From Marinifilaceae bacterium (lineage in GTDB: Bacteria; Bacteroidota; Bacteroidia; Bacteroidales; Marinifilaceae), in contig JAOARN010000044.1 in NCBI GenBank assembly GCA_025210485.1, positions 1 to 64,000 of the forward strand: 64,000 nt of DNA, given 5' to 3'. This document shows, piece by piece, positions 10,856 to 48,529 of the stretch. The stretch's first letter is position 1. The number at the start of each line of letters is the position of its first letter. The notes under the pieces were generated by a model that saw nothing but the letters and a program-made list of their open reading frames with translations, was not told where the DNA came from and did not search any database. The translations under genes and the position numbers were made by a program.

Positions 10856-12181
10856 ATGAAAAAAACTAACTACTCAATTAATTATTTATTGATAATATGT
10901 TTTGCTTCCATTTTTTTTACAAATTGTTCGAAAAATGAAGATAATAAGGCTGAAACTCCTACTGAACAGAAGGACACCAACGCCGACCAACCAATAAAAC
11001 AAGACCCTACGGTTCCTTCAAATGAAACAATAAAAATTGATGATGAATCATCATTCAATGTTCAAAATTTCATAAAAAGTTTCAACCAAATTCTTAATCT
11101 TAAATGGAAATTTAAATACAGTTATAAACATGAAATAATCAATTCAAAACTTGCTTATAGCTATAGAAAAAATAATCTTCACGGAGATTTCGAATTACAG
11201 GATACAAAGTATATTCACAATTATGATCCTAATGGTGTAATAATTTCATCGATTCGATTTGACATTAATAATTCCATTGTGGACGCTGATGCCGATAGAA
11301 GCTTCACATATAAGTATGATAAAAATGGATATATCACTAAATTCTGTAAACGTTCTGGAAATTTTGAGCCAGATAATTTTATTGTAATTAGCTATGATTC
11401 AAAAATGCGTATCATAGAACAAAAAATTTATCAAGGAAACAACGAAGATAATCTTCTTGAATCATATGAATTCACCTATTTCGATGACAGCAATTATGAT
11501 CCAAATGACTACAATTCGACTCCTCGGTTAAAAGGAATATCAACTTTTTACAATGACAACAAAAAATCTGGCGAGTATACTTACGATTATGATAACAACA
11601 TGAATCTACTTAAGCTAAATGAATTGGCTGAAAATGGAGAAATCTACAAATCAAGAATTTATGAATATGATAATAAAAATCGACTAATAAAGGAATCTCA
11701 ATCAAACAGAGATAATTTTGTTAGTTTTGAATATTCGAATGATTACATAAGTGTAAATGAGTTTCAATCAGAAAATATAATATTTGCTTCAAATAAGTAC
11801 GACAAAAATAATACTCTTGTCGAAAAAGTAGCATTTGAATACAATGGTGATGATGAATTAACGCACTATATAAGAGTGGAGATAACACCAGTATATAATT
11901 GTCATAACGACCAATACCCTTCAAAATCAACTTATATGATTGGAGCTATTGAAGATAACAAGATACAGGCTTATGCTACTACTAATAAATCCAAATCCGA
12001 TAAAAACAATGTTGTAATTGAATTTTTTGACAACAAGGATAAATTATTGCTTTACAAAACAATAAATTATGACAATGCTATAATAAGAAGAACATTCCAT
12101 ACTCCTGATGGTAAAGAAATAGGTTCTGATTATAATATGGAAGAATGTATTGAAGCGTTGGATTATGCTCATCGCTTATAA
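10856..12181 (+). CDS. YD-repeat-like lipoprotein, paralog 1
   Basis: A 441-residue predicted lipoprotein with a signal peptide and lipobox ending FFTNC (Cys at about 24). The body contains repeated units of the form YDxNGxI or YDNKNRLIKE, joined by short beta strands (FTYKYDKNGYITK, YTYDYDNNMNLLK). This resembles the YD/RHS repeat fold, a string of beta hairpins, but without the RHS core or toxin domain. The last 80 residues are different from the two following paralogs. It sits first of three tandem paralogs (10856, 12391, 13794) and has its own terminator, so each is a separate transcript. A surface or outer-membrane location is likely. Function unknown; adhesion or carbohydrate contact is only a guess. 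Confidence 0.75.
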   Translation: MKKTNYSINYLLIICFASIFFTNCSKNEDNKAETPTEQKDTNADQPIKQDPTVPSNETIKIDDESSFNVQNFIKSFNQILNLKWKFKYSYKHEIINSKLAYSYRKNNLHGDFELQDTKYIHNYDPNGVIISSIRFDINNSIVDADADRSFTYKYDKNGYITKFCKRSGNFEPDNFIVISYDSKMRIIEQKIYQGNNEDNLLESYEFTYFDDSNYDPNDYNSTPRLKGISTFYNDNKKSGEYTYDYDNNMNLLKLNELAENGEIYKSRIYEYDNKNRLIKESQSNRDNFVSFEYSNDYISVNEFQSENIIFASNKYDKNNTLVEKVAFEYNGDDELTHYIRVEITPVYNCHNDQYPSKSTYMIGAIEDNKIQAYATTNKSKSDKNNVVIEFFDNKDKLLLYKTINYDNAIIRRTFHTPDGKEIGSDYNMEECIEALDYAHRL

Positions 12182-12201
12182 ACTTAAATAATTCATAAAG
12201 A

Positions 12202-12240
12202 AAATAGCTTAATAATCCATATCTATTAAGCTATTTTTTT
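12202..12240 (+). terminator. Intrinsic terminator after YD lipoprotein 1
   Basis: Perfect 13-bp arms AAATAGCTTAATA (12202-12214) and TATTAAGCTATTT (12224-12236) are followed by a T run. Confidence 0.92.
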
Positions 12241-12348
12241 GCATATCAGATAATAGCTGACTATAATTTATTTCAACATTATACCTGACATAAAAAGAGA
12301 TATGTTTAATAACACATAGTATTCTTTAATTATACCTTATCTATTATC

Positions 12349-12356
12349 TAGTTTTG
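12349..12356 (+). promoter_or_regulatory. -7 promoter element of YD lipoprotein 2
   Basis: TAGTTTTG matches TAnnTTTG exactly, 35 bases before the ATG at 12391 and past the preceding terminator. The -33 box is weak (TTTAA near 12325). Confidence 0.6.
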
Positions 12357-12390
12357 CCGCGCAATTAAATAAAAACCAAATCAAAACAAC

Positions 12391-13608
12391 ATGAAAAAAT
12401 TTTATTTACACCTATTATGTTCTTTATTCGTATCTACCTTATGCCTAACTAGCTGCAGTGATGACGACGATGAAACGGTTATAAAACAAGAAAATGTAAA
12501 AATAGAAATCGATGAAAACTCTTCATATATCGAAAGTGTTTTTACTGAAAATTTAGAACAAATATGCCGTACTCAAGATGGATATATGCACAATTATCAG
12601 CTTAAAAATTACAAAGAAGGTAATAGAATAAAGTACAGTATACTTGAATCAACTGTTCATGGTAAATTCAAAATGCCTATTATTAAATTTATTCATCACT
12701 ATAATGATAAAAATATTATCACATCTTCTTCGATATATGAATTAGATTATGGAGTGTCTGAAGAAGAATCAACTACCGAGTTAAAATATGAATACAACAA
12801 AGATGGATATATTATAAAATACACAGGCATAGTAGACGGAAAAGATTCTTTCTTTAATTCAATAAGTTATAACGAACATAATCTAATATCAGAATTTAAG
12901 ATGACTGAGATTACAAATGAAGAAAAGAATGAAGGTTTAGCTATAAACTTATCTTACGAAAAAATCGGAGACACATATCATGTTACTAAACTCGAATCAA
13001 AAAATAATGGCGAGGGCAGTAAAACATACACTTTTTCTTTTAACGACAAGCAACAAGTTTCAGAAGAAAATGAAATAGAACTGTCTGAATCAGGAAACAA
13101 ATATGAATACAATACAAAATTCACTTATGATGAAAATGGTAGACTTATCGAAGAAGTAGAAACACATAAAAATAACGAAGATAAAGAAACCTATAGTTAT
13201 TCAGACGAAAAGCTAGACTGGATTGATTATTATAAGAATCAAGTTTCACGAATTAAATCATTTGATAAGGATGGCTTTTTGATAAAAAGAATTGAATGTG
13301 ATTTTGACTACGATACTGACAAAATAGATTATATAAGAGTTAGCGAATATACAAAAAGCATTAAAACCAAGGTATTGTTCTGTACTGGTACTATTGAGGA
13401 TTATAAAACAGATATATATTATACATATAAAAAAGATAACAACATCGTCACAAAAGTATATTTTGATAATAATAATCAGAAATTATTAACTGTTGTTTAC
13501 GATGAATCATCATACACTACTAAATATAGCCTAGAAGATGGAACAGAAATTGATAGAGCTACTGTAATAAAAGATTTTCCGATATTGGCTACTTACGATC
13601 ATATATAA
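12391..13608 (+). CDS. YD-repeat-like surface lipoprotein, paralog 2
   Basis: A 405-residue predicted lipoprotein. The lipobox is LTSC at residues 20-23, followed directly by SDDDDE. An acidic run right after the lipidated Cys is the lipoprotein export signal described in Bacteroidota, so surface exposure is predicted. The body has repeated YEYNKDGYI, TYDENGRLIEE and similar hairpin units, as in its neighbours. The last 80 residues, from EYTKSIK onward, are nearly identical to those of paralog 3, while the middles have diverged. It has its own promoter element at 12349 and terminator at 13628. Function unknown. Confidence 0.78.
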   Translation: MKKFYLHLLCSLFVSTLCLTSCSDDDDETVIKQENVKIEIDENSSYIESVFTENLEQICRTQDGYMHNYQLKNYKEGNRIKYSILESTVHGKFKMPIIKFIHHYNDKNIITSSSIYELDYGVSEEESTTELKYEYNKDGYIIKYTGIVDGKDSFFNSISYNEHNLISEFKMTEITNEEKNEGLAINLSYEKIGDTYHVTKLESKNNGEGSKTYTFSFNDKQQVSEENEIELSESGNKYEYNTKFTYDENGRLIEEVETHKNNEDKETYSYSDEKLDWIDYYKNQVSRIKSFDKDGFLIKRIECDFDYDTDKIDYIRVSEYTKSIKTKVLFCTGTIEDYKTDIYYTYKKDNNIVTKVYFDNNNQKLLTVVYDESSYTTKYSLEDGTEIDRATVIKDFPILATYDHI

Positions 13609-13627
13609 GATTAAATTATTTACTTTT

Positions 13628-13667
13628 AAAAAAGGCTTGAATTATAAATATAATTCAAGCCTTTTTT
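13628..13667 (+). terminator. Intrinsic terminator after YD lipoprotein 2
   Basis: GGCTTGAATTATA and TATAATTCAAGCC pair perfectly around a two-base loop, flanked by A and T runs. Confidence 0.93.
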
Positions 13668-13793
13668 ACATATAAAATATTAACCAAACACTCAAGTGTT
13701 TTTATAGTGTTATTAGACATTTTTATTTTATTGTTTAGTTACTATGGTTTTAGTTTATTTGTACCTACTTTACTTAATAAAAAATTTATAAAC

Positions 13794-15032
13794 ATGAAAA
13801 ATTATTACTTAAATTTATTTTGCGCATTATTTATTGCATTATTTTGCTTTAGCGGCTGTAGTGATGACGATGATGACGAAGCAATAAAAAAAGACACAAC
13901 TGAACAAAATCAAGAAGAAGGCGTAACAATCAAAATTAATGAGAACTCATCTTTTAATGAAAAGATATTTCTAAAATGTGCAGAAATATTATTCCTTTCA
14001 AGAGAAGGATTTGATCACAACTATCAATTAAAAAATCACAGAGAAAATAATAGATTAAAGTACAGTCTTGTAACAACAAAAGCACATGGAGACTTCTCTA
14101 TGCCATATGAAAAAATTATTTACACTTATGATGATAATAATGTAATAATATCTTCAACATCAGAAGATATGGAAGATGGTCTTAAATACGACGAATCTGA
14201 TGATAGTTTTAAAGTGGTATTTGAATACGATAAGGAAGGATATATAATAAAAACAGAAAAAATTTATAATGAAAAGCCTGTTGGAGAAGTAACAATTAGC
14301 TATAATGAGAATAAACTGCTAGTTAAAATGGAAGGAACTTATAATTACGGTGGATCCGATAAAGGGAAATTCTCAGAGGAATACTCTTACACAGAAGTAG
14401 CAGGTTCATATTTAGTAAGCAAATTGGTATATAATGAAACTGATTCAGATGGCAATGAGGATAATTCCGAATATATATATGAGTTTAATTCTAAAGGATT
14501 GGTCATAAATTGTAATAGTGTATGGGGTAAGGAAAACTCTAGTTACACTTATAAATACGATAGTCAAAATAGATTAATTGAAGACACTTTTTCTAGCGGA
14601 ATTAGCGAATCCAAAAACACTTATAATTACACAGAAAATGAATTACAGATTAGAGAACTTTCTAAAACAGGAGAGATAGAAAGCATAAATTCATTCGACA
14701 AAGATGGTTTTAAAATCAAAAATGTAGGATGGGCTTCTAATAGTGCTTCACAAAAGTATATTTTAGTTACCGAATATACTAAAAGCATTAAAAACAAGGT
14801 GTTGTTCTGTACTGGAACCATTGAGAGCTATAACACAGACATATACTACACATACAAAAAAGATAATGACATAGTTACAAAAGTATATTTTGATAATAAT
14901 GATCAGAAATTATTAACTATTGTTGAGGATGAATCATCAGATACTACTTATAGCTTGCCTGATGGTACAAAAATTGATAAAGATACTGCCAAAGGAGATT
15001 TTCCTAAATTGGTTACTTACGATCAAATATAA
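13794..15032 (+). CDS. YD-repeat-like surface lipoprotein, paralog 3
   Basis: A 412-residue predicted lipoprotein. An in-frame ATG at 13707 would add 29 residues before the signal peptide, so I start at 13794 (MKNYYLN), which gives a normal lipoprotein signal ending FSGC, then SDDDDDE. That acidic stretch again fits the surface export signal. YD-like units include FEYDKEGYIIK, YSYTEVAG and YKYDSQNRLIED. The C-terminal 80 residues closely match paralog 2 (VLFCTGTIE, YYTYKKDN, VTKVYFDNN). Own terminator at 15051. The tight spacing and near-identical ends suggest recent duplication or gene conversion. Function unknown. Confidence 0.78.
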   Translation: MKNYYLNLFCALFIALFCFSGCSDDDDDEAIKKDTTEQNQEEGVTIKINENSSFNEKIFLKCAEILFLSREGFDHNYQLKNHRENNRLKYSLVTTKAHGDFSMPYEKIIYTYDDNNVIISSTSEDMEDGLKYDESDDSFKVVFEYDKEGYIIKTEKIYNEKPVGEVTISYNENKLLVKMEGTYNYGGSDKGKFSEEYSYTEVAGSYLVSKLVYNETDSDGNEDNSEYIYEFNSKGLVINCNSVWGKENSSYTYKYDSQNRLIEDTFSSGISESKNTYNYTENELQIRELSKTGEIESINSFDKDGFKIKNVGWASNSASQKYILVTEYTKSIKNKVLFCTGTIESYNTDIYYTYKKDNDIVTKVYFDNNDQKLLTIVEDESSDTTYSLPDGTKIDKDTAKGDFPKLVTYDQI

Positions 15033-21037: not shown

Positions 21038-21152
21038 CTTTGATTTATACAGAAGAAGTGAGAGAACAGGCTCTGTGACCTTCTGACAACCCCAGTCTTA
21101 TACTGAAAGGTGTCAAATCCTGACCAAAACAATTGGTGAATATAAATTAAAG
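21038..21152 (+). ncRNA. SAM-I riboswitch aptamer
   Basis: All four helices of the SAM-I fold can be drawn. P1 pairs CTTTGATTTATA (21038-21049) with TATAAATTAAAG (21141-21152). P2 contains AGAA with TTCT and ACAG with CTGT. P3 pairs CAGT with ACTG next to CAACC and GGTG, followed by the conserved CAAATCC. P4 pairs ACCAA with TTGGT. High SAM would stabilise the aptamer and switch off the methionine genes that start at 21665. The expression platform probably lies between 21156 and 21353. Confidence 0.9.
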
Positions 21153-21664: not shown

Positions 21665-23020
21665 ATGACAAACTCCCTAAACTACGAAAGTCTTCAAGTA
21701 CATGCTGGTTTTGAGCAAGATGAAACAAATTCATGCACAACTGCCATACACCAAAGCTCAGCTTACACATTTAAATCATCGAAACATGCAGTTGACCTAT
21801 TTGAATTAAATGAATTTGGAAACATATACACTCGAATAGGAAATCCAACCAATGAAGTATTTGAAAAGAGAATTGCAGCTTTGGAAGGAGGTAGTGGCGC
21901 ACTAGCTTGCTCCTCTGGACAATCAGCTCAATTCCTTGCTCTTACAAACATCTTAAGATCAGGTGAAAATTTTATTTGCGCAGATCAAATATATGGAGGA
22001 AGCTTTAATCAGTTTAAAATTCAATTTCAAAGACTTGGAATTGAATGTCGATTTTTTGACACAAACAATACTAATGATGCAATTTCAAAAATAGATAAAA
22101 ACACCAAAGCAATATTTGTAGAGACTTTACCTAATCCTAAAATATCGGTTCCTGATTTTGAGAGATATGTTGAATTAGCCAAAAGCTTTGATCTACCTTT
22201 AATCGTAGACAATACATTTGGTGCGGCAGGTTATGTATTTAAACCTATAGAACATGGAGCAAACATAATAGTACACAGCACAACAAAATGGATTTGTGGA
22301 CACGGAACTACGATGGGCGGAGTAATAATTGATGCTGGAAACTACAACTGGGGCAATGGGAAATACCCTCAATTTACACAGGCATCCGAAGCTTATCACG
22401 GTTTCAAATTCTGGGAAAAATTCGGATATGACAGTCCTTATGGTAATATTGCATTTATCATAAGAGCAAGAGTTGAAGGAATGCGTGATTATGGATGTTG
22501 CCAAAGCCCTTTTAATTCATTTCTACTTCTTCAGGGGCTTGAAACTCTATCTCTTCGACTTGATAGACAAATCAGCAATACTCAAAATCTGGCAGAATGG
22601 CTTATAAAACAAGAATGGGTAGAAAATGTAAATTACCCTGGTCTAAAAACTGACAAATATTACAACTTAGCTAAAAAGTATTTTAAAAAAGGAGCTGGTT
22701 CTGTTCTTACATTCAAACTAAAAGCAGGAAGAGATACGGCAGATATTTTCATTGAGAAATTAAATTTAATAAAACACATAACGAACTTAGGTGATGTAAA
22801 AACTTTAATAGTTCATCCCGCATCAACAACCCACCAACAATTGAGTAAAGAAGAACAAATAAAATGTGGAGTAGAGGAAGGATTATTAAGACTTTCAGTT
22901 GGGATTGAACATATTGATGATTTAAAACAAGATATACAAAATGCGATTAACGAAACATTGCCTCATGAAATATCTAAACCAAACAACTATCAACACAAAC
23001 AACAAACACTAATCTCTTAA
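21665..23020 (+). CDS. metY: O-acetylhomoserine aminocarboxypropyltransferase (sulfhydrylase)
   Basis: A 451-residue PLP enzyme of the Cys/Met metabolism family. It begins [15 protein letters not shown], has [21 protein letters not shown] near residues 57-77, [13 protein letters not shown] near 83-95, and the lysine that binds PLP in [11 protein letters not shown] near 206-216. Length is that of the long MetY subgroup (about 430-450), longer than MetB or MetC (about 390). It makes homocysteine from O-acetylhomoserine and sulfide. It is the first gene after the SAM-I riboswitch and is 11 bases from metX, whose product is its substrate supplier. Confidence 0.95.
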
Positions 23021-23031
23021 TTATCTAAACA

Positions 23032-24057
23032 ATGCAAGATAAAACCTACATACACAAAGGTATTTTTGAATTGGAAAACAAGGAAGAACTTATAGACATT
23101 AGAATAAAATATTCATATGCTGGTAAAATTAATTCAAATCATAATAATATAATCTGGGTATGTCATGCATTAACTGGAAATACAAATGTTTTTGAATGGT
23201 GGTCTGAACTTTTCGGTCATGGTAAAATTTTTTGTCCTAGTAAATATTTTATAATATGTGTTAACAGCCTAGGTTCCTGCTATGGTACAACAGGTCCAAA
23301 TTCGCTTAATCCAAAAACAAAAGAGAAATACTACAATAGCTTTCCCTTTTTCACAATTAGAGATATGGTAGGAGTTAATGAGAAATTACGTATACATCTT
23401 GGTATCAATAATATAAATATACTTATTGGAGCATCACTAGGAGGAATGTTGGCTCTGGAATGGTCATACAAGCTAAAAGAAAGACTCAATAAACTTATTG
23501 CAATTGCAACAAATGCTGTTCAATCTGCTTGGGCTATAGCATTTAATGAATCCCAACGTCTCGTAATTGAAAACAGTTCTGATTGGAATGAGGCTACAGA
23601 CAAAGCAGGGATTGCAGGTTTAAAAATTGCTAGATCAATTGCTATGCTAAGTTACAGATCATATAATGGCTATAATTTAAAACAAAAAGAAAATGACAAC
23701 TCAAAGATTAATAATTTCAAGGCAAGCAGCTACCAAATCTATCAAGGTGAGAAATTGAGCAGAAGGTTTAGCCCTCACTCCTACTATTACCTAAGCAAAG
23801 CAATGGATAGTCATAATATGGGAAGAGGGCGAGACAATATAGAAAAAGCTTTGTCACAAATCAAGGCGAGAAGCTTATGTATAGGAATAGATTCGGATTT
23901 GATATTTCCAAATTCCGAACAAAAACAGCTTAGTAAACATATTAAAAATGCAAAATATAAAGAAATAAAGTCCATGTACGGGCATGATGCATTTTTAATT
24001 GAACACGAGCAACTAAATGTAATAATGCAAGATTTTATAAATAACAACTATGAATAA
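23032..24057 (+). CDS. metX: Homoserine O-acetyltransferase
   Basis: A 341-residue alpha/beta hydrolase. The oxyanion and early blocks are HALTGNTN (about residues 44-51) and the N-x-x-GSCYGTTGP stretch near 80-92. The nucleophile motif is GASLGGM near 136-142. The catalytic Asp is in GIDSDLIFP near 283-291 and the His in GHDAFLIE near 318-325. This is the MetX pattern; the enzyme acetylates the hydroxyl of homoserine with acetyl-CoA. It is somewhat shorter than typical MetX (about 370) but has no gap at catalytic sites. Its stop overlaps the hom start by eight bases, so translation is coupled. Confidence 0.94.
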   Translation: MQDKTYIHKGIFELENKEELIDIRIKYSYAGKINSNHNNIIWVCHALTGNTNVFEWWSELFGHGKIFCPSKYFIICVNSLGSCYGTTGPNSLNPKTKEKYYNSFPFFTIRDMVGVNEKLRIHLGINNINILIGASLGGMLALEWSYKLKERLNKLIAIATNAVQSAWAIAFNESQRLVIENSSDWNEATDKAGIAGLKIARSIAMLSYRSYNGYNLKQKENDNSKINNFKASSYQIYQGEKLSRRFSPHSYYYLSKAMDSHNMGRGRDNIEKALSQIKARSLCIGIDSDLIFPNSEQKQLSKHIKNAKYKEIKSMYGHDAFLIEHEQLNVIMQDFINNNYE

Positions 24058-25234
24058 TATTTTAAATATAGGAATTTTTGGATACGGAACAGTAGGCGAA
24101 GGACTTGCCCATGTTCTTAAAAACAGTGAAGGTATTAAATCTCAAATTAAAAAAGTATGTGTTAGAACTAAGAATAAAGAACGGAACGGTATTCCACAAA
24201 GTATAATAACATATAATGCTGATGATATTTTAAAAAACAAAGACATTGATCTCGTTGCAGAATTAATAGACGACGACAATGAAGCTTATCGTATCGTTAA
24301 ACAAGCATTAATCAATAAAAAAAATGTAGTTTCTGCTAATAAAAAAATGTTAGCTCAGCATCTTCAAGAATTAATTAAACTACAGAAAAAACATGAAGTA
24401 TCTTTGATTTACGAAGCTTCGAGTTGTGGCAGTATTCCGATAATTCGAAATTTGGAAGAATATTATGACAATGACTTAATACAGTCATTATCAGGAATTA
24501 TGAATGGATCATCAAATTATATATTAAGTAAGATATTCAATGAAAACACAGAATATTCAAAAGCATTAAAAGATGCGCAAAAACTAGGCTTTGCTGAAAC
24601 TGACCCTAGTTCTGATGTAGAAGGATATGATACATTGTACAAATTAATCATTCTAACAGTACACGCCTTTGGCGTATTCATTAAATCAGATGAAGTATTT
24701 AATACCGGTATCTCGAATTTAAAAGCTTATGATATCAAAATTGCCAAACAAAAAGGATTTAAAATTAGACTCATTGGACAATCTACAAAACTTGATGACT
24801 CAAAAATAAATCTTCATGTATGTCCAAAATTTGTAGATTCAAAAGATCAATCATATAATGTGGAGGACCACTACAATGGTATTTCAATAAATGGTAAATT
24901 CTATGATAATCAATTTATGTATGGAAAAGGAGCTGGAGCTCATCCTACAGGTTCTGCAGTGCTAAGCGACATAAGTGCTTTAGAATATAATTATAAGTAT
25001 GAATACAAGAAACTTAACTTAAACTCAAATTTAGAACACTCAAATAATTTAAGACTACATATATATATAAGTTTTACAAACTTTGATCAAATTAAAAATT
25101 TTAATTTCATCGAAATTAATGAACAATTCAAATCATCTGAACATAACTATATTATCGGAAAAATAAATTTAACTGAATTGATAAAACATAAGCATATTAT
25201 AGAAAAAGAAAAACTATTCATAGCTACAATTTAG
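24050..25234 (+). CDS. hom: Homoserine dehydrogenase
   Basis: A 394-residue enzyme. The NAD(P) motif GYGTVGEG is near residues 11-18, the catalytic region has SANKKML near 95-101 with the Lys, and GFAETDPSSDVEGYDTLYKL near 183-202 carries the substrate-binding Asp and the second Lys. The C-terminal 80 residues are where other Hom proteins have an ACT domain; here the region (residues about 315-394) is short and poorly conserved. This suggests altered or absent amino-acid feedback. It reduces aspartate semialdehyde to homoserine. It overlaps metX by eight bases and precedes an aspartate kinase by 56. Confidence 0.92.
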   Translation: MNNILNIGIFGYGTVGEGLAHVLKNSEGIKSQIKKVCVRTKNKERNGIPQSIITYNADDILKNKDIDLVAELIDDDNEAYRIVKQALINKKNVVSANKKMLAQHLQELIKLQKKHEVSLIYEASSCGSIPIIRNLEEYYDNDLIQSLSGIMNGSSNYILSKIFNENTEYSKALKDAQKLGFAETDPSSDVEGYDTLYKLIILTVHAFGVFIKSDEVFNTGISNLKAYDIKIAKQKGFKIRLIGQSTKLDDSKINLHVCPKFVDSKDQSYNVEDHYNGISINGKFYDNQFMYGKGAGAHPTGSAVLSDISALEYNYKYEYKKLNLNSNLEHSNNLRLHIYISFTNFDQIKNFNFIEINEQFKSSEHNYIIGKINLTELIKHKHIIEKEKLFIATI

Positions 25235-25290: not shown

Positions 25291-26547
25291 ATGATTATAT
25301 ACAAATTTGGAGGATCATCTATAAAAGATGCAAACTCAATAAGAAATACCTGTGAGATAATTCGGCATTCCACCAATAATTTAACAATTGTTGTATCGGC
25401 TATGGGAAATAGTACTGACTTGCTAGAAGAAATAATAAACTTACATTTTGACAATCAGATAATTGACCATAAAATAAAAGAACTTTATTCAAAGCATAAA
25501 ATTATAATTGATGAACTTTTTGAAGAAAGTCCTGTTAAATTATTAGAACAAATACAGTTCCTTTTTATCGAACTAGAAACCAAAATTAAAACCAAATCAT
25601 CTGAATCGTATAGTTACATATACGATCAGGTGATTGCCTATGGCGAATTATTATCTTCATTAATTATTTCATTTTTTTTAAATAGTATCAATCTTAAGAA
25701 TAAATACCTAGATATTAGAAATATTATACGAACGGATTCCAATTATATGAATGCGAATATAGATTGGGAAGAGTCACAAAATCAATACAAAAAACATATA
25801 AAAAGCTTCGAGAACAATCTAATATTAACTCAAGGTTTTATAGCATCTGAAAAAAATGGGAACACCACAAGCCTTGGTCGTGAGGGTTCTGATTTTACAG
25901 CCTCTATACTTGCTTATTTAATGGATGCAGAAAAAATAATTATTTGGAAAGATGTACTTGGGATATTAAATGCTGATCCAGATTATTTCGACGAAACTAT
26001 CATACTTAAAAGTTTATCTTACGATGAAGCTATTGAACTAGCACACTTTGGAGCTAGAGTTATACATCCGAAGACAATAAAACCAATTCAATACAAACAA
26101 ATTGAACTTCAAGTTAGATCTTTTTTTCATCCTAGTCTTAAAGGAACCTCGATTAACAAACAAAACATAACAAATCCTTTAGTTCCAAATTATATTGTCA
26201 AGAAAAATCAAATCTATATTGAACTTAAACCTAGAAGATTATCCTATATCGATGAACATAAATTAATAAAAATTTACTCGCTTATTTCTAAGTTTAATAT
26301 TAAAGTCAATTTTTCGCAAAATACGGCAACTAGTTTCGCTTTTTGTTTTTCGGATAAAACCCGCAACACAAGTGAATTCATCGAAAAACTAAAATCAGAA
26401 TACAATATACATAGCATGAAAAATTTAGAAATAGTCACAATAAGACACTATAATTCAAATGATAATTATATACTTGCAAATAAGAAAATAATAACAGAAC
26501 AAAGGAATAGAGAAACAGCTATTTACCTTGTAGAAGAAATATCTTAA
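25291..26547 (+). CDS. lysC: Aspartate kinase
   Basis: A 418-residue kinase of the amino-acid kinase fold. It begins IIYKFGGSSIKD, with VVSAMGNSTDLLEE near residues 33-46, TTSLGREGSDFTAS near 192-205 and IIWKDVLGILNADPDYF near 214-230. The regulatory region (about 300-418) is short for two full ACT domains, so feedback control may differ from the usual enzymes. It phosphorylates aspartate at the head of the Asp-family pathway. Sitting between hom and the metH-like gene in a SAM-controlled operon, it is probably a methionine-dedicated isozyme. The aspartate semialdehyde dehydrogenase that links it to Hom is not in this window. Confidence 0.93.
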   Translation: MIIYKFGGSSIKDANSIRNTCEIIRHSTNNLTIVVSAMGNSTDLLEEIINLHFDNQIIDHKIKELYSKHKIIIDELFEESPVKLLEQIQFLFIELETKIKTKSSESYSYIYDQVIAYGELLSSLIISFFLNSINLKNKYLDIRNIIRTDSNYMNANIDWEESQNQYKKHIKSFENNLILTQGFIASEKNGNTTSLGREGSDFTASILAYLMDAEKIIIWKDVLGILNADPDYFDETIILKSLSYDEAIELAHFGARVIHPKTIKPIQYKQIELQVRSFFHPSLKGTSINKQNITNPLVPNYIVKKNQIYIELKPRRLSYIDEHKLIKIYSLISKFNIKVNFSQNTATSFAFCFSDKTRNTSEFIEKLKSEYNIHSMKNLEIVTIRHYNSNDNYILANKKIITEQRNRETAIYLVEEIS

Positions 26548-26551
26548 CAAA

Positions 26552-28255
26552 ATGGATAAATTTACTAGATTAAAAGAAATTTTAAGTGAAAAAATACTTA
26601 TTCTTGATGGAGGAATGGGAACTATGATTAAATCTAAAAAACTAAATGAAAATGATTTTAAACATGAACTTTTTCCAAAGAATACAAAAAAATTGAAAGC
26701 TAATTATGATCTACTTAATCTCAGTAAACCTGATGTAATTGAGAATATTCATCTAGAATTTTTAAAATCAGGCTCGAATATCATAGCAACTAATAGTTTT
26801 AATTCCAACGCTATTTCTCAATCCAATTACAAAACAGAACATTTAGTAGAAAAACTAAATATAAGCTCAGTTGAAATAGCAAAAAAATCTATTGAAAGAC
26901 ATCACAAAGAAAATCCCGAATCAATTGTATTTATTGCTGGATCGGTAGGACCAACAAATAAATCTGTTTCAATGTCTCCCGATATAAAGGATCCATCTAG
27001 GCGCGATATCGACTTTGACAGCTTACACGAGGCATATAAAATACAGATATCGGCTCTGTTAAAATCAGGCATTGATCTTTTGCTTATCGAAACCGTATAC
27101 GATAGTCTAAATGGAAAGGCAGCAATCTACACAGCAAACCAACTGATGAAAGAACTGAATATCAGAGTTCCTATTGTGGTATCAGCTACCATTACAGAAG
27201 AGACAGGTAAATTAATTTCTGGTCAAAGTCTTGAAGCTTTTGTAAACAGTCTTAACAATCCAAATATTATTGCTTTTGGTCTAAACTGTTCTTTTGGAGC
27301 TGATAAAATGATTAGCCATATACAAAAGCTAGGAGAATTATCAGATAAATTTATTTGTGCTTATCCAAATGCTGGACTTCCGAACAAAGATGGTAGCTAT
27401 AACGAAAGCCCTGAAAGCCTATTTGAAAAGTTAAAAATATGTTTCGAAAAACAAGAAATAAATATAATTGGCGGTTGCTGTGGAACTAGACCTGAGCACA
27501 TTAGAAAATTAGCAGAGGAAACAAAAGTCTATAAGCCAAGACTATTATCAAAAAAGGAAAACAGACTAAAACTATCAGGTCTAGAAATGGTAATACATTC
27601 TGAAAAGGCTTTATTTGCAAGCAATATAAAAGTAGACAAAAAATACGCACCAGATAAAACCAAAATAATCGATCAAATAAAATTTGAGCTTAAAAAAGAA
27701 CACCAAATTATTAAACTTAATCTTGATGAATTAGGACTCGAATCAAATAACAAGATAAAATCTTTTTTTAATCTTTTTTCATCAAATCGCGAAGTAAACA
27801 AAAGTCCTTTAATATTAGAATCTAAAAAATGGGAAAATATAATTTATGCAGCTAAACATATTCAAGGAAAACCTATATTACGATGTTTCCCTCCAACAAC
27901 AGAGGATGAAGATTTTATAAACAAAGTCTTAGAATTAAAATACCTAAATCTTGCCATCGCAATAAAAGCTGTTCAGGATACAATAAACAATGACAGTTTG
28001 AATAAAAAAATTGACAGATTTGAAGGTATTTTCAATTTATTATCAGAAATAGAATTCGAACCAAATAATATCATATTTGATTTATCTGACAAAAAATTAA
28101 AAATCAATGAAATACTTAAAATCAATAAGATTATCAAAAACAAATTCAATAATTGCTTTTGTCTACTAGATATAAATGAAATCCAGAGTGAAAATATTCA
28201 AATGAAAACTTTAGAAACGGAAATTGATATAATCATAAGAAAACATATTAATTAG
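26552..28255 (+). CDS. Shortened MetH: homocysteine methyltransferase domain plus degenerate folate domain
   Basis: A 567-residue protein. Residues 1-330 are a homocysteine S-methyltransferase domain: ILDGGMGTM at 17-25, the first zinc Cys in GLNCSFG (245) and the Cys pair in GGCCGTRP (309-310). Residues 342-512 align with the pterin-binding domain of MetH by scattered blocks: SGLE, LNLDE, SKKW, IQGKPI and FEPNNIIFD. The folate-binding residues of that domain are not seen (the usual GERTN block is missing). The cobalamin-binding and SAM-activation domains are absent; full MetH has about 1,200 residues. It may take methyl from another donor or work with a separate B12 protein. It is last in the methionine operon, four bases after lysC. 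Confidence 0.85.
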   Translation: MDKFTRLKEILSEKILILDGGMGTMIKSKKLNENDFKHELFPKNTKKLKANYDLLNLSKPDVIENIHLEFLKSGSNIIATNSFNSNAISQSNYKTEHLVEKLNISSVEIAKKSIERHHKENPESIVFIAGSVGPTNKSVSMSPDIKDPSRRDIDFDSLHEAYKIQISALLKSGIDLLLIETVYDSLNGKAAIYTANQLMKELNIRVPIVVSATITEETGKLISGQSLEAFVNSLNNPNIIAFGLNCSFGADKMISHIQKLGELSDKFICAYPNAGLPNKDGSYNESPESLFEKLKICFEKQEINIIGGCCGTRPEHIRKLAEETKVYKPRLLSKKENRLKLSGLEMVIHSEKALFASNIKVDKKYAPDKTKIIDQIKFELKKEHQIIKLNLDELGLESNNKIKSFFNLFSSNREVNKSPLILESKKWENIIYAAKHIQGKPILRCFPPTTEDEDFINKVLELKYLNLAIAIKAVQDTINNDSLNKKIDRFEGIFNLLSEIEFEPNNIIFDLSDKKLKINEILKINKIIKNKFNNCFCLLDINEIQSENIQMKTLETEIDIIIRKHIN

Positions 28256-28319
28256 ATTAAATTGTAGATACAAAATTAAAAAAATAAGACAATGTATTTA
28301 TTAAATCTAAAATCTATAA

Positions 28320-28327
28320 TATATTTG
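28320..28327 (+). promoter_or_regulatory. -7 element of a possible metG promoter
   Basis: TATATTTG matches TAnnTTTG exactly. No clear -33 TTTG. If used, the metG leader would be about 230 bases and include the hairpin at 28379. Confidence 0.5.
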
Positions 28328-28378
28328 CAAACTAATTGAGACATAAGCACAAATTAAATGATCTCTATTAGTATTTGA

Positions 28379-28420
28379 AATAAAACACAGTCAATTTCTA
28401 ATCGAAATAGTGTTTTATAT
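28379..28420 (+). terminator. Hairpin after the methionine operon
   Basis: ATAAAACAC (28380-28388) pairs with GTGTTTTAT (28410-28418), with an inner ATTTC/GAAAT pair. A short T-rich tail follows. It could end the methionine operon, or act in the metG leader because it lies downstream of the -7 element at 28320. Confidence 0.6.
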
Positions 28421-28560
28421 TTAAAACCAAAACAAGATAATTTATTGTTTTTAATACTTGATTTATAGGTATGCTAATTTCATTTTTAAAAAATTACACT
28501 TACCCCATCTTGAAAACAATAATAATTTAAATGATATAAGAAACATAGATCTTTTTTACA

Positions 28561-30591
28561 ATGAAGAATTTTAAAAGAACCACAATTACCACTGCTTTGC
28601 CATATGCTAATGGACCTGTTCATATTGGTCACTTAGCAGGAGTTTATGTTCCAGCCGATATTTATGCTAGATACATGCGTATGAAAGGGCAAGAGGTTAT
28701 GCTTATCGGAGGTTCAGACGAACATGGTGTACCTATCACTATAAAGGCTCAAAAAGAATCTGTAACACCACAAGATATTGTAGACAAGTATCATAATATT
28801 ATAAAAAAATCATTCGAAGAATTTGGAATTTCTTTCGACGTATATTCTAGAACAAGTTCTGAAACACATCATAAAACAGCATCTGAATTTTTCAAAACAC
28901 TTCACGAAAAAGGTGAATTTATCGAAAAATCAAGCGAACAATATTACGATCCTATTGCAAAACAATTCCTTGCTGATAGATATATCACAGGTACCTGCCC
29001 TCACTGTAAATCAGAAGGAGCTTATGGTGACCAATGTGAGAGCTGTGGAACCTCACTAAACGCGACAGACCTAATCAATCCTAAATCTGCGATTACAGGT
29101 AATGTTCCAGAATTAAAAGAAACGAAACACTGGTTTTTACCTTTAGATAAATACGAAGGTTCACTTAAACAATGGATTTTAGAAGAACACAAAGAATGGA
29201 AACCAAATGTATATGGTCAATGTAAGTCATGGATTGACAACGGACTAATGCCTAGAGCCGTAACTCGTGATTTAAATTGGGGAGTACCTGTTCCTGTTGA
29301 AGGAGCTGACGGAAAAGTTCTTTATGTTTGGTTTGATGCACCAATTGGTTATATTTCTGCAACAAAAGAACACACTGAAGATTGGGAAAAATATTGGAAA
29401 TCAGAAGACACTAGATTACTTCATTTTATTGGTAAAGATAATATTGTATTTCACTGTATTATTTTCCCTGCCATGTTAAAGGCAGAGGGATCATATATAC
29501 TTCCTGATAATGTTCCTGCAAATGAATTTTTAAATCTTGAAGGAGATAAAATTTCAACTAGTAGAAACTGGGCTGTATGGTTACATGAATATCTTGAAGA
29601 GTTCCCTGGAAAACAAGATGTTTTGAGATACGTTCTGACTGCCAATGCTCCTGAAACAAAAGATAATGATTTCACTTGGAAAGATTTTCAAGCTAGAAAT
29701 AATAATGAATTGGTTGCAATTTTAGGAAATTTCGTAAATAGAGCTTTAGTACTAACTCACAAATATTTTGACGGAAAAGTTCCAGCTCAAAATGAACTTA
29801 ATGAATTTGACAAAGAGACTTTGGCTAGTATCAAGGAAATAGTTGCAGAAGTAGAAAAAGCTCTTGAAAACTTCCATTTCAGAGAGGCTTTAAAACAAGC
29901 AATGAACCTTGCAAGATTAGGAAACAAATATTTGGCTGACACTGAACCTTGGAAATTAATCAAAACTGACGAGGATAGAGTTAAAACTATTTTAAATATC
30001 TGTCTCCAAATTACAGCTAATCTATCTACATTAATTGCTCCATTTCTACCATTTACAGCTGAAAACTTACGTGAATTCCTTAACATTAAGGAAATCAACT
30101 GGGAAGATATGGGTGAAAATGTTCTAGAAAATGAACATAGCGTGAATAAACCAAAACTATTATTCGAAAAGATTGAAGATAGTACTATTCAGCAACAAGT
30201 AGATAAACTTCTTGCAACTAAAGAGTTAAACGAAGCTAATAATGCAACTATAGAACCAGCTAAAGACAATTGCAGTTTTGAAGACTTCTCAAAAAATGAT
30301 ATCAGAGTAGGAACAATTGTTGAAGCAGAAAAGCTAGCTAAAACTAAAAAACTTTTAAAATTAAAAGTTGATACTGGTCTAGATACTAGAACTATCATAT
30401 CAGGAATAGCAGAATTTTTCAAACCTGAAGATATCATAGGTAAACAAGTTTGCGTACTTGTTAACCTTGCTCCTAAAAAACTAAAAGGAGTCGAATCCCA
30501 AGGTATGATTTTAATGGCTGAAACTCCAACTGGCGAATTATGTTTTATATCTCCAGAAACAATGATTACTAATGGTTCTACTATAAGCTAA
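28561..30591 (+). CDS. metG: Methionyl-tRNA synthetase
   Basis: A 676-residue class I synthetase. It begins with [17 protein letters not shown] (HIGH motif near residues 21-24), has a zinc knuckle [18 protein letters not shown] near 146-163, and the KMSKS equivalent is KISTS near 332-336. The last 110 residues (about 565-676) are a tRNA-binding OB domain ([13 protein letters not shown], ending [16 protein letters not shown]). It charges tRNA-Met with methionine. It is adjacent to, but separately transcribed from, the methionine biosynthesis operon. Confidence 0.97.
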
Positions 30592-46545: not shown

Positions 46546-47934
46546 CTAATTCACACTTGATGCACCTTCAGTAAAACCTTCATCGTATTCCACACTACTT
46601 TTATCCCAATTACTAGTACCTGTTATAGTCGCTTCACAATCTTTAAACATAAAACTCATATCGGAAACACTAGAAGTATCCCAAGTAGACAAATCTATTT
46701 CACCAAGTCCTTTATAATTCATAAACAAACCTGACATATTTTGAATACCAGTAGTTACGTATTTACTTAAGTCAGTTTTAACACCTTCTAACTTTGTTTT
46801 TTCAATTGCTTCCTTCAATCTATCTAGATCAACAAATGTATACTTCTCCCCGTTTAATTCATATTCTACCCCAACCATGGCATGTTTAGTCGCTATTATA
46901 TGCCCTCGGGGATCCTGTTTTAAATATATTTCTTCAAAGACTGCTGTGCAGGTTCCTGATTTATCCAAAGTCAAAGTAATTTCTTTATCTGTTTTTTCTC
47001 CATTTGGTGTAATCCAATGCTTAAATTTACTATCTCTATGAGCTACAGCTATTACTGTAAATGGTTTTCCTTTCAAAAATGGCTCATTCGGTTTTATAAT
47101 ATGCCCATCACCAATCTCTTTTATTTTCACATCTATTGATTTAGGATTATATCCATCATTATCAACCTTAAAATCTAAAGGAACAATAATTTCTTGTTCA
47201 AATTCTGCAAATTTAAACTTTGCATTTACCTTATGCTCTCCTTCTTTAAGTGTTTTCACTTTTACTTTTATACATAAATCCTTATTGACTCCTATGATTA
47301 TTTTTTCTGAAGCAAGAGGCGTGTTTTTTTTCTCCACATCTTTCATCTCTAATTCAACCCCAATATTTGATTCAAACCCTATATCTTCTTTTTTTAGAAT
47401 TACAGGGAAGCAGTTAAAATTGATGAATTTTAAATCCAAGTCTACCTCCACATCTTTTTGATAATGTCCTACATTAACTCCTGATTTTTGCAATACAAAC
47501 TTAACTTTTTTAGGATCATACTGGGTCGTAGCCTTGGCTACAATATTAACAGGTATTCCAAAACTATTTTCTAAACTTAAGTGCAAATACTCATCTTTAC
47601 TTATTTCACTATCTGGTATTAAACTTACATCTAATTTCAAAATATTTATTGGATTTATCTTTAGACCGTATAATTCTTCATCTACTTTTAGATTCTTATA
47701 ATCTGAACTTTGAACAAATTCCTTAACTGTAAAATTAGTATTATTATAAATCTTAGCTGATAAAGTTCCTTTTACTCCAAAAGGCAAATAACCAAAATCA
47801 AGAGTGTCATTACAGAATAATCTTTTTTCAAGATGTTTCGGTGTATTTGTTTTAAAATCTGTATCATCCGTGCATCCTACAATTCCCACTAATAATAATA
47901 CTGCTATTGTTATATAATTGAATATCTTTTTCAT
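46546..47934 (-). CDS. BspA-type (DUF285) surface lipoprotein, module copy 1
   Basis: A 462-residue paralog of the lipoprotein at 44268. It starts at the ATG 47934 (MKKIFNYI); the in-frame ATG at 48027 lies inside the previous gene. Lipobox IVGC, then TDDTDF, again acidic. The mature part has the same beta domains (LDFGYLPFGVKG), an InlB-like unit (FKHWITPNGEKT, CTAVFEE) and a DUF285 unit near the end (DLSTWDTSSVSDMSFMF). The gene lies 10 bases after the barrel gene at 47945. Sequence has diverged strongly from the other copy, so the duplication is old or under diversifying selection. Confidence 0.75.
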   Translation of the reverse strand: MKKIFNYITIAVLLLVGIVGCTDDTDFKTNTPKHLEKRLFCNDTLDFGYLPFGVKGTLSAKIYNNTNFTVKEFVQSSDYKNLKVDEELYGLKINPINILKLDVSLIPDSEISKDEYLHLSLENSFGIPVNIVAKATTQYDPKKVKFVLQKSGVNVGHYQKDVEVDLDLKFINFNCFPVILKKEDIGFESNIGVELEMKDVEKKNTPLASEKIIIGVNKDLCIKVKVKTLKEGEHKVNAKFKFAEFEQEIIVPLDFKVDNDGYNPKSIDVKIKEIGDGHIIKPNEPFLKGKPFTVIAVAHRDSKFKHWITPNGEKTDKEITLTLDKSGTCTAVFEEIYLKQDPRGHIIATKHAMVGVEYELNGEKYTFVDLDRLKEAIEKTKLEGVKTDLSKYVTTGIQNMSGLFMNYKGLGEIDLSTWDTSSVSDMSFMFKDCEATITGTSNWDKSSVEYDEGFTEGASSVN

Positions 47935-47944
47935 AATCTTAAAT

Positions 47945-48529
47945 TTAAAATAAGTAAGCAATAGAAAACTGTAAATCATACCTGTCAAATTCAATACTTG
48001 ACATCCCGACTGAAAATAACATATCATTGAACTGATAATTTGCTCCTAATTCAAAAGAAATCCCCGAACAACTATCATCGTCTTTTGCCCAATAAGTAGC
48101 ATCTTTAGTATTATTCAATTTCAAATAATCAACTTCCAAAGTCTTTAGATACTTTCCATAGCCCAAACCTCCATACAATCCAAAGTTATCTGCTAGCTTA
48201 TGGGTTAAACCAAGATTAATCATATGCGACTCTATTTTTGATTCACCAGTTTGAACATAACATCGGTCATTTCCTAAAAAAGTTTCTACATTTTGGATAT
48301 TAAACGAATAATCCAAATCAAACCTCATTGATCGCGCTTGAAAATTTAAATACAAACCTGTTTTATCAAAAAAATTTAAAACTCCAATTTTAAATCCAAT
48401 GGGATTATACAAACTGCCGCTATAACCAGCGTATACTTCTTTCCTCTCCTGTTTATCTTCTTCCGCTTTTTGTGCACTCACCATTATGGAACACAAGAGA
48501 ATACTTGTTATTAAAATAAAATTTTTCAT
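47945..48529 (-). CDS. Small outer-membrane beta-barrel protein, module copy 1
   Basis: A 194-residue paralog of the barrel at 45733, with a signal peptide (about 1-19) and terminal strand DRYDLQFSIAYLF, identical in its last 12 residues to the other copy. Landmarks include LYNPIGFKIGVLNF and LYGGLGYGKYLKTL. First gene of the duplicated two-gene module. About 900 bases of non-coding DNA lie upstream, so it probably has its own promoter. Function unknown. Confidence 0.72.
   Translation of the reverse strand: MKNFILITSILLCSIMVSAQKAEEDKQERKEVYAGYSGSLYNPIGFKIGVLNFFDKTGLYLNFQARSMRFDLDYSFNIQNVETFLGNDRCYVQTGESKIESHMINLGLTHKLADNFGLYGGLGYGKYLKTLEVDYLKLNNTKDATYWAKDDDSCSGISFELGANYQFNDMLFSVGMSSIEFDRYDLQFSIAYLF

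Follow-up and report, generated by a model that had tools for sequence, protein, structure and literature searches.

A MetH-derived protein with a preserved homocysteine barrel and an eroded folate barrel, encoded last in a SAM-riboswitch methionine operon of a Marinifilaceae bacterium

The last gene of a methionine operon in a Marinifilaceae bacterium encodes a MetH homologue that has been reduced to a homocysteine domain and an eroded folate domain, as a preliminary description of the sequence had claimed and as profile matches, alignment and structure models have borne out. MetH is a textbook modular enzyme. Here the B12 and activation domains, the capacity to bind folate and the adjacent metF have all been lost and the homocysteine part has been well preserved; the earlier statement that no methyl donor is evident from the protein is supported. 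The protein descends from MetH but should not be called methionine synthase MetH, because three defining features of that enzyme were looked for and found to be absent, and the most fitting description is a homocysteine methyltransferase of MetH origin, putatively independent of folate and cobalamin, an independence suggested by genome content. Losing the modules that supply the methyl group together with the methyl-folate enzyme, while keeping the regulated operon and the homocysteine site, leaves a real gap in methionine biosynthesis, and the reduced MetH, seen in a single genome, would be a direct test case for the dismantling and re-use of a multidomain B12 enzyme. Genome annotation that relied solely on the N-terminal MetH domain would be mistaken in predicting that methionine is made with B12.

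Gene, operon and locus

The open reading frame begins with ATG and runs for 567 open codons within the 64,000-nucleotide stretch of DNA analysed here (the window; Table 1). In profile searches it matched NF007024 over residues 3-510 (484 bits) and TIGR02082 (453 bits), both matches extending through residue 510, with scores far below the cut-offs because only the first two of the four MetH domains are present. The match to the MetH model ends at model position 526, and the B12 and activation domains, whose absence had been noted from the sequence, are indeed both missing from the 567-residue protein. A tblastn search with the MetH and MetF of relatives against the window and against positions 28060-28620 detected no remnant of a B12 domain, an activation domain or MetF 3' of the stop codon, which rules out a frameshift or an assembly break of a full MetH. 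An AlphaFold2 model built with 46 MetH relatives in the alignment (pLDDT 85.6, pTM 0.88) gave two barrels that superpose on human methionine synthase (9ssp), in its N-terminal half, with a Z score of 49.8 and 2.2 A over 547 residues, and the fold of both domains is thus predicted with confidence.

Table 1 Features of the methionine operon and of its last gene in the window
Feature	Position	Strand	Evidence and remarks
SAM-I (S-box) riboswitch	21042..21148	+	Rfam RF00162, 77 bits against a gathering score of 44.4
O-acetylhomoserine sulfhydrylase (homocysteine synthase, OAHS)	21665..23020	+	TIGR01326, 583 bits against a cut-off of 495
MetX, homoserine O-acetyltransferase	23032..24057	+	TIGR01392, E 3e-101, below cut-off (339 against 500 bits)
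Homoserine dehydrogenase (Hom)	24050..25234	+	NF004976, 333 bits against a cut-off of 205
Aspartate kinase (AspK)	25291..26547	+	TIGR00657, 243 bits against a cut-off of 209; equal slot in relatives
Reduced MetH	26552..28255	+	homocysteine/Zn barrel, residues ~10-325, and degenerate, incomplete folate barrel, residues ~340-550
Homocysteine S-methyltransferase domain	26597..27520	+	PF02574, residues 16-323, E 4e-80; Zn ligands C246, C309, C310
Eroded folate (pterin) barrel	27575..28252	+	hydrophobic core retained, folate loops and last strand gone, low-confidence tail
Possible hairpin after the operon, candidate transcription end	28382..28418	+	MFE -8.1 kcal/mol, z -2.6

The reduced MetH is the last gene of the operon OAHS-MetX-Hom-AspK-MetH, whose SAM riboswitch is the sole RF00162 match in the genome assembly, and a SAM riboswitch also lies upstream of the operon in all four Marinifilaceae relatives tested. 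The syntenic MetX orthologues are ~52% identical to MetX of the window. At 10 of 10 Marinifilaceae loci, which include those four and come from Marinifilum, Labilibaculum, Ancylomarina and other members of the family, the equivalent slot holds OAHS-MetX-Hom-AspK-MetH, with a MetH of 1224-1238 residues, followed by MetF. The window locus has lost both metF and the 3' part of metH, and metG begins 305 bp on with no remnant between; the stem of the candidate hairpin in this interval is A+T-rich and was not called by a terminator scan. Horizontal import of the operon was also considered and is not supported, given the gene order of the family and trees that place Hom (0.998) and the homocysteine domain (0.964) with Marinifilaceae. 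At two of the ten loci (L079 and L093), AspK was seen only as a C-terminal open frame of 115 and 156 codons, respectively, between Hom and MetH, and L079 keeps a second AspK upstream of OAHS.

The homocysteine and folate barrels

The zinc cysteines C246, C309 and C310, described earlier as intact, lie in columns that are invariant across the alignment of relatives. Among positions that are invariant in 17 full-length MetH of relatives, the homocysteine barrel keeps 62 of 73 (85%), the three cysteines included, and some of the 11 altered positions may matter for function. The PF02574 barrel and Zn ligands of stand-alone methyltransferases are present; scores against PRK09485 (118 bits, cut-off 215) and PRK07534 (110 bits, cut-off 338) stay far below the level of an MmuM or BHMT match, and by sequence the domain is of MetH type, not of MmuM or BHMT type. 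PRK08645, a bifunctional homocysteine S-methyltransferase/MTHFR, matches residues 6-338 only, and its C-terminal MTHFR domain is lacking.

In the second barrel, the Pfam search gave no match of the reduced MetH to PF00809 (Pterin_bind), a model to which the equivalent stretch of a relative's MetH scores 1.7e-61. The C-terminal 230 residues alone nevertheless match MetH model positions 395-526 (E 9.6e-18) and, among PDB entries, the pterin domain of MetH from Bacteroides (3k13, E 5e-12). Because a MetH alignment could impose the fold, this part was also modelled from its single sequence; the resulting model was weak (pLDDT 54.8), and its best structural matches were MetH folate domains (3k13, 9ssp and 4ccz). 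A foreign or unrelated C-terminal domain is ruled out by these sequence matches and the single-sequence model. The proposed relation of residues 342-512 to the MetH pterin domain has thus withstood comparison by sequence and by structure, and its landmarks are present at residues 342-345 (SGLE), 424-427 (SKKW), 437-442 (IQGKPI) and 502-510 (FEPNNIIFD).

The folate-binding block, said in the preliminary description to be gone, is lost in the alignment to relatives, where ligand-loop motifs are replaced or deleted. Only 18 of the 64 folate-barrel positions invariant in the 17 relatives are kept; the other 46, seven of them deleted, fall in the ligand loops, with loss of GERTNVAGS, replacement of the D of DVNMD by K, changes of DSSKW to ESKKW, NSISLKEGE to RCFPPTTED and MAFDEKGQAD to KAVQDTINND, and absence of the whole SGGISNLSFSFRGNN segment. 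The residues retained are mostly those of core and strands, plus FD at 509-510, so that the fold is present though the conserved folate-binding positions are not. In the related enzyme MtgA, contacts to the pterin ring come from Ser32, Asp75, Asp102, Asn129 and Asp194, and Asn227 is catalytic; according to that study, enzymes of this kind have in common the residues that bind pterin and those used in catalysis (PMC7154762). Judged by position, the equivalents in MetH are apparently D388, D423, N444, D510 and the Asn of SGGISN, of which D510 alone is retained. This pattern of a kept fold and lost ligand loops agrees with the earlier suggestion that the eroded domain may now be structural, although the scaffold role itself is something that we infer.

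Divergence along the operon follows the same division. Mean identities of this genome to Marinifilaceae, with the relatives' own mean in brackets, are 65% for OAHS (91%), 52% for MetX (81%), 61% for Hom (89%), 52% for AspK (76%), 47% for the homocysteine barrel (83%) and 26% for the folate barrel (89%). When ordinary MetH proteins are compared in pairs, the folate barrel almost always shows the higher identity of the two halves (homocysteine/folate values of 55/71 and 82/96% are examples), whereas the reduced MetH is 38-49% identical to relatives in the homocysteine barrel and 25-31% in the folate barrel. The terminal branch of this genome measures 0.51 for Hom, 1.05 for the homocysteine domain and 2.49 for the pterin domain. 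It follows from the identity and branch figures that the homocysteine barrel has undergone no more than a mild relaxation of constraint, and that constraint has collapsed in the folate barrel; the homocysteine-making genes evolve normally, with a mildly accelerated homocysteine barrel and a folate barrel nearly free of constraint. This rate pattern argues against a plain pseudogene, although it is no proof of enzymatic activity.

Methionine-pathway partners and the search for further examples

The genome assembly comprises 4.52 Mb in 156 contigs and is 94.16% complete, the missing ~6% being the main caveat on absences. Among the separate B12-binding, MetE and MetF genes whose search the preliminary description had suggested, B12-binding ones were found but are of mutase and aminomutase type, and MetE and MetF were not found. 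In this 94.16%-complete assembly there was no match to MetF/MTHFR (PF02219), which was found in 24 of 30 relatives searched, and no MetE-type PF01717 domain above the cut-off (best E 0.036). The reduced MetH stands alone there, with neither a second PF02574 protein or homocysteine methyltransferase nor any other piece of MetH, the search with the MetH model returning one match. A pterin-binding search of the genome gave one protein, a 286-residue frame of dihydropteroate synthase size.

Two proteins matched the B12-binding model PF02310 above the cut-off. One is a mutase-like frame of 724 residues on contig C41, which adjoins a frame of 626 residues, the two being read as methylmalonyl-CoA mutase from their size and pairing; the other, of 264 residues, carries an OAM_dimer domain (aminomutase subunit). 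Both belong to other enzymes and were rejected as corrinoid partners. Neither the MetH model nor PF02310 revealed a MetH- or MtaC-type corrinoid protein in the 94.16%-complete assembly; the MetH model detects MtaC-type proteins in several relatives with E near 1e-30, so one here would have been seen, and the earlier idea of pairing with a separate corrinoid protein finds no support. Within the assembly, a B12-binding domain of MetH is thus lacking both in cis and in trans, as are the activation domain and the MetF that would supply 5-methyl-THF. An OAM_dimer and B12-binding protein of lysine/ornithine aminomutase type lies beside a CoA-transferase-like gene in this genome (L061, G000:C110), a pair that suggests amino-acid fermentation by the organism. 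In another genus of the family (L082, G001:C19:1-16000) AspK-OAHS-MetX-Hom is kept, and the assembly of that genome gave no match to the MetH model and no MetF; in a further Marinifilaceae genus (G012) neither MetH nor MetF was found.

Searches with the C-terminal part through 393 genomes of the order and 395 of the phylum revealed no orthologue with the same truncation, and the reduced MetH protein itself retrieved no second example among the genome contigs searched. A frame of 580 residues in one genome (G058) was discarded as an orthologue, being a pterin-plus-B12 polypeptide that lacks the homocysteine domain. Split MetH, with open frames near 900 residues, is common in the phylum; at two loci outside the order (L057 and L059) a homocysteine protein of 341 residues is accompanied by a pterin domain on a separate adjacent frame. 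The literature searched held no paper on a MetH of this architecture, which is not proof of absence, and no MetH-derived folate-independent synthase with a folate barrel eroded in place.

Proposed mode of action and rival explanations

We favour, with a confidence just short of an even balance, the reading that MetH has in this lineage been reduced to a homocysteine methyltransferase that needs neither folate nor B12, uses another donor, of S-methyl or betaine type, and retains the dead barrel as a scaffold. More tentatively still, the protein may be classed as a MetH-lineage folate- and cobalamin-independent methionine synthase, with the dead folate barrel as its structural partner. It derives from the full-length MetH of the family, the gene having stayed last in the SAM-riboswitch methionine operon while the DNA for the B12 and activation domains and for the terminal part of the folate barrel was lost, as was the adjacent metF; a single deletion of ~3 kb could account for the loss of the 3' part of metH together with metF. 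With no methyl-folate and no folate site, the protein most likely acts alone, as a zinc-dependent homocysteine S-methyltransferase. Homocysteine from OAHS would bind the Zn(Cys)3 site, and a small-molecule donor (S-methylmethionine, DMSP, betaine or similar) would methylate it directly to methionine, by analogy with MmuM, BHMT or Phaeobacter Bmt; the dead folate barrel may be packed against the homocysteine barrel as a partner in folding and stability. This explanation is supported by the uneven conservation of the two barrels, the intact homocysteine-making genes upstream under one SAM riboswitch, the absence of partner proteins from the assembly, the full MetH and MetF at all ten family loci, the confidently predicted fold and the precedent of Bmt, and counting against it are the 11 changed invariant positions, the faster homocysteine barrel, the lack of an MmuM/BHMT-level match, its occurrence in one genome and the ~6% unassembled.

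MmuM takes its methyl group from S-methylmethionine, and both MmuM and BHMT accept a small donor directly. Like the reduced MetH, these stand-alone PF02574 enzymes and Phaeobacter Bmt have one Zn(Cys)3 homocysteine barrel and no corrinoid part, and the proposed mode of action would be shared with them; unlike them, the reduced MetH has a clearly MetH-type sequence and an extra degenerate barrel, and its donor is only proposed. With full-length MetH, as in Marinifilum, Labilibaculum and Ancylomarina, it has in common the lineage, the operon position, the homocysteine/Zn barrel and the two-barrel N-terminal module, but not the B12 and activation domains, the folate ligand loops, the last strand or a metF in the assembly. 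Phaeobacter Bmt, a close functional precedent, belongs to PF02574 and was originally known as the homocysteine component of a split MetH (PMC5764234); with DMSP or betaine as donor, the purified protein forms methionine in vitro and requires neither THF nor cobalamin (PMC12366255). In split MetH, in three parts in Phaeobacter (PMC5764234) and in two elsewhere in the phylum, the homocysteine part is on its own polypeptide, as here, but in our case pterin and B12 partners were not found in the assembly and the folate barrel is eroded in place, not split off. The core methionine synthases MesA-MesD are folate-independent and derive from the catalytic domain of MetE (PMC7857596); they share the functional idea of a methionine synthase freed from methyl-folate, but are of MetE type (PF01717), a domain that the reduced MetH lacks, and the latter, as a PF02574 protein, would be their MetH-type counterpart. 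The N-terminal barrel of MetE, in which the original binding sites are obliterated and the fold is kept (PMC539065), resembles the eroded folate barrel as a second barrel with lost sites; it differs in having arisen by duplication of the homocysteine barrel and in still contributing to folate binding.

The main rival reading, which seems unlikely, is that the gene is simply decaying in a lineage dependent on external methionine, the folate barrel having already drifted and the homocysteine barrel disappearing or kept for minor salvage. The 94.16%-complete assembly does lack a complete methionine synthase, divergence of the homocysteine domain is raised relative to the other operon genes (identity to outgroups of 43%, against 54% for relatives), and the two other genera (G001 and G012) show no MetH or MetF. 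Yet 567 codons stay open despite far divergence from every relative, by which the event is probably old, 85% of the invariant homocysteine-barrel positions are kept, and an auxotroph would have no use for OAHS, MetX, Hom and the riboswitch, all of which are intact at ordinary rates. Those same genes bear on a route that we consider improbable, in which OAHS joins O-acetylhomoserine and methanethiol to give methionine, the MetH remnant serving only to salvage homocysteine with S-methylmethionine or S-adenosylmethionine as donor: methanethiol is a substrate of some OAH sulfhydrylases, and OAHS, MetX and Hom are kept both here and in G001, but OAHS is 65% identical to that of relatives with full MetH and MetF.

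Partners acting in trans, a separate pterin-B12-activation protein and metF in the style of split MetH, might lie in the unassembled part of the genome, as its 156 contigs and 94.16% completeness and the commonness of split MetH in the phylum (~900-residue frames; the 341-residue homocysteine protein of L057 and L059) would permit. We rate this as slightly more doubtful, since the homocysteine part of a split system should not be carrying an eroded second folate barrel, and metF and the other half must both have been missed although the relatives' copies sit at this locus. Least probable of all is a methyl group donated by free methylcobalamin or by a separate corrinoid protein. Methylcobalamin is a natural reaction partner of the MetH homocysteine barrel, and the genome appears to use B12, in the mutase and aminomutase; however, the MetH model, sensitive to MtaC-type proteins in relatives at E near 1e-30, finds none here, and the PF02310 matches above the cut-off are the mutase-like frame of 724 residues and the OAM_dimer protein of 264 residues.

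Elsewhere in the window, three consecutive lipoprotein-like paralogues (45% and 27% identity) with no Pfam match occupy positions 10856-15032, and the last ~70 residues of the second and third are far more alike than the rest, a pattern that suggests recent duplication or gene conversion. On the minus strand at 46546-48529, an outer-membrane beta-barrel frame and a DUF285 frame overlap by ~80 bases and are possibly one frameshifted gene or a coupled pair.
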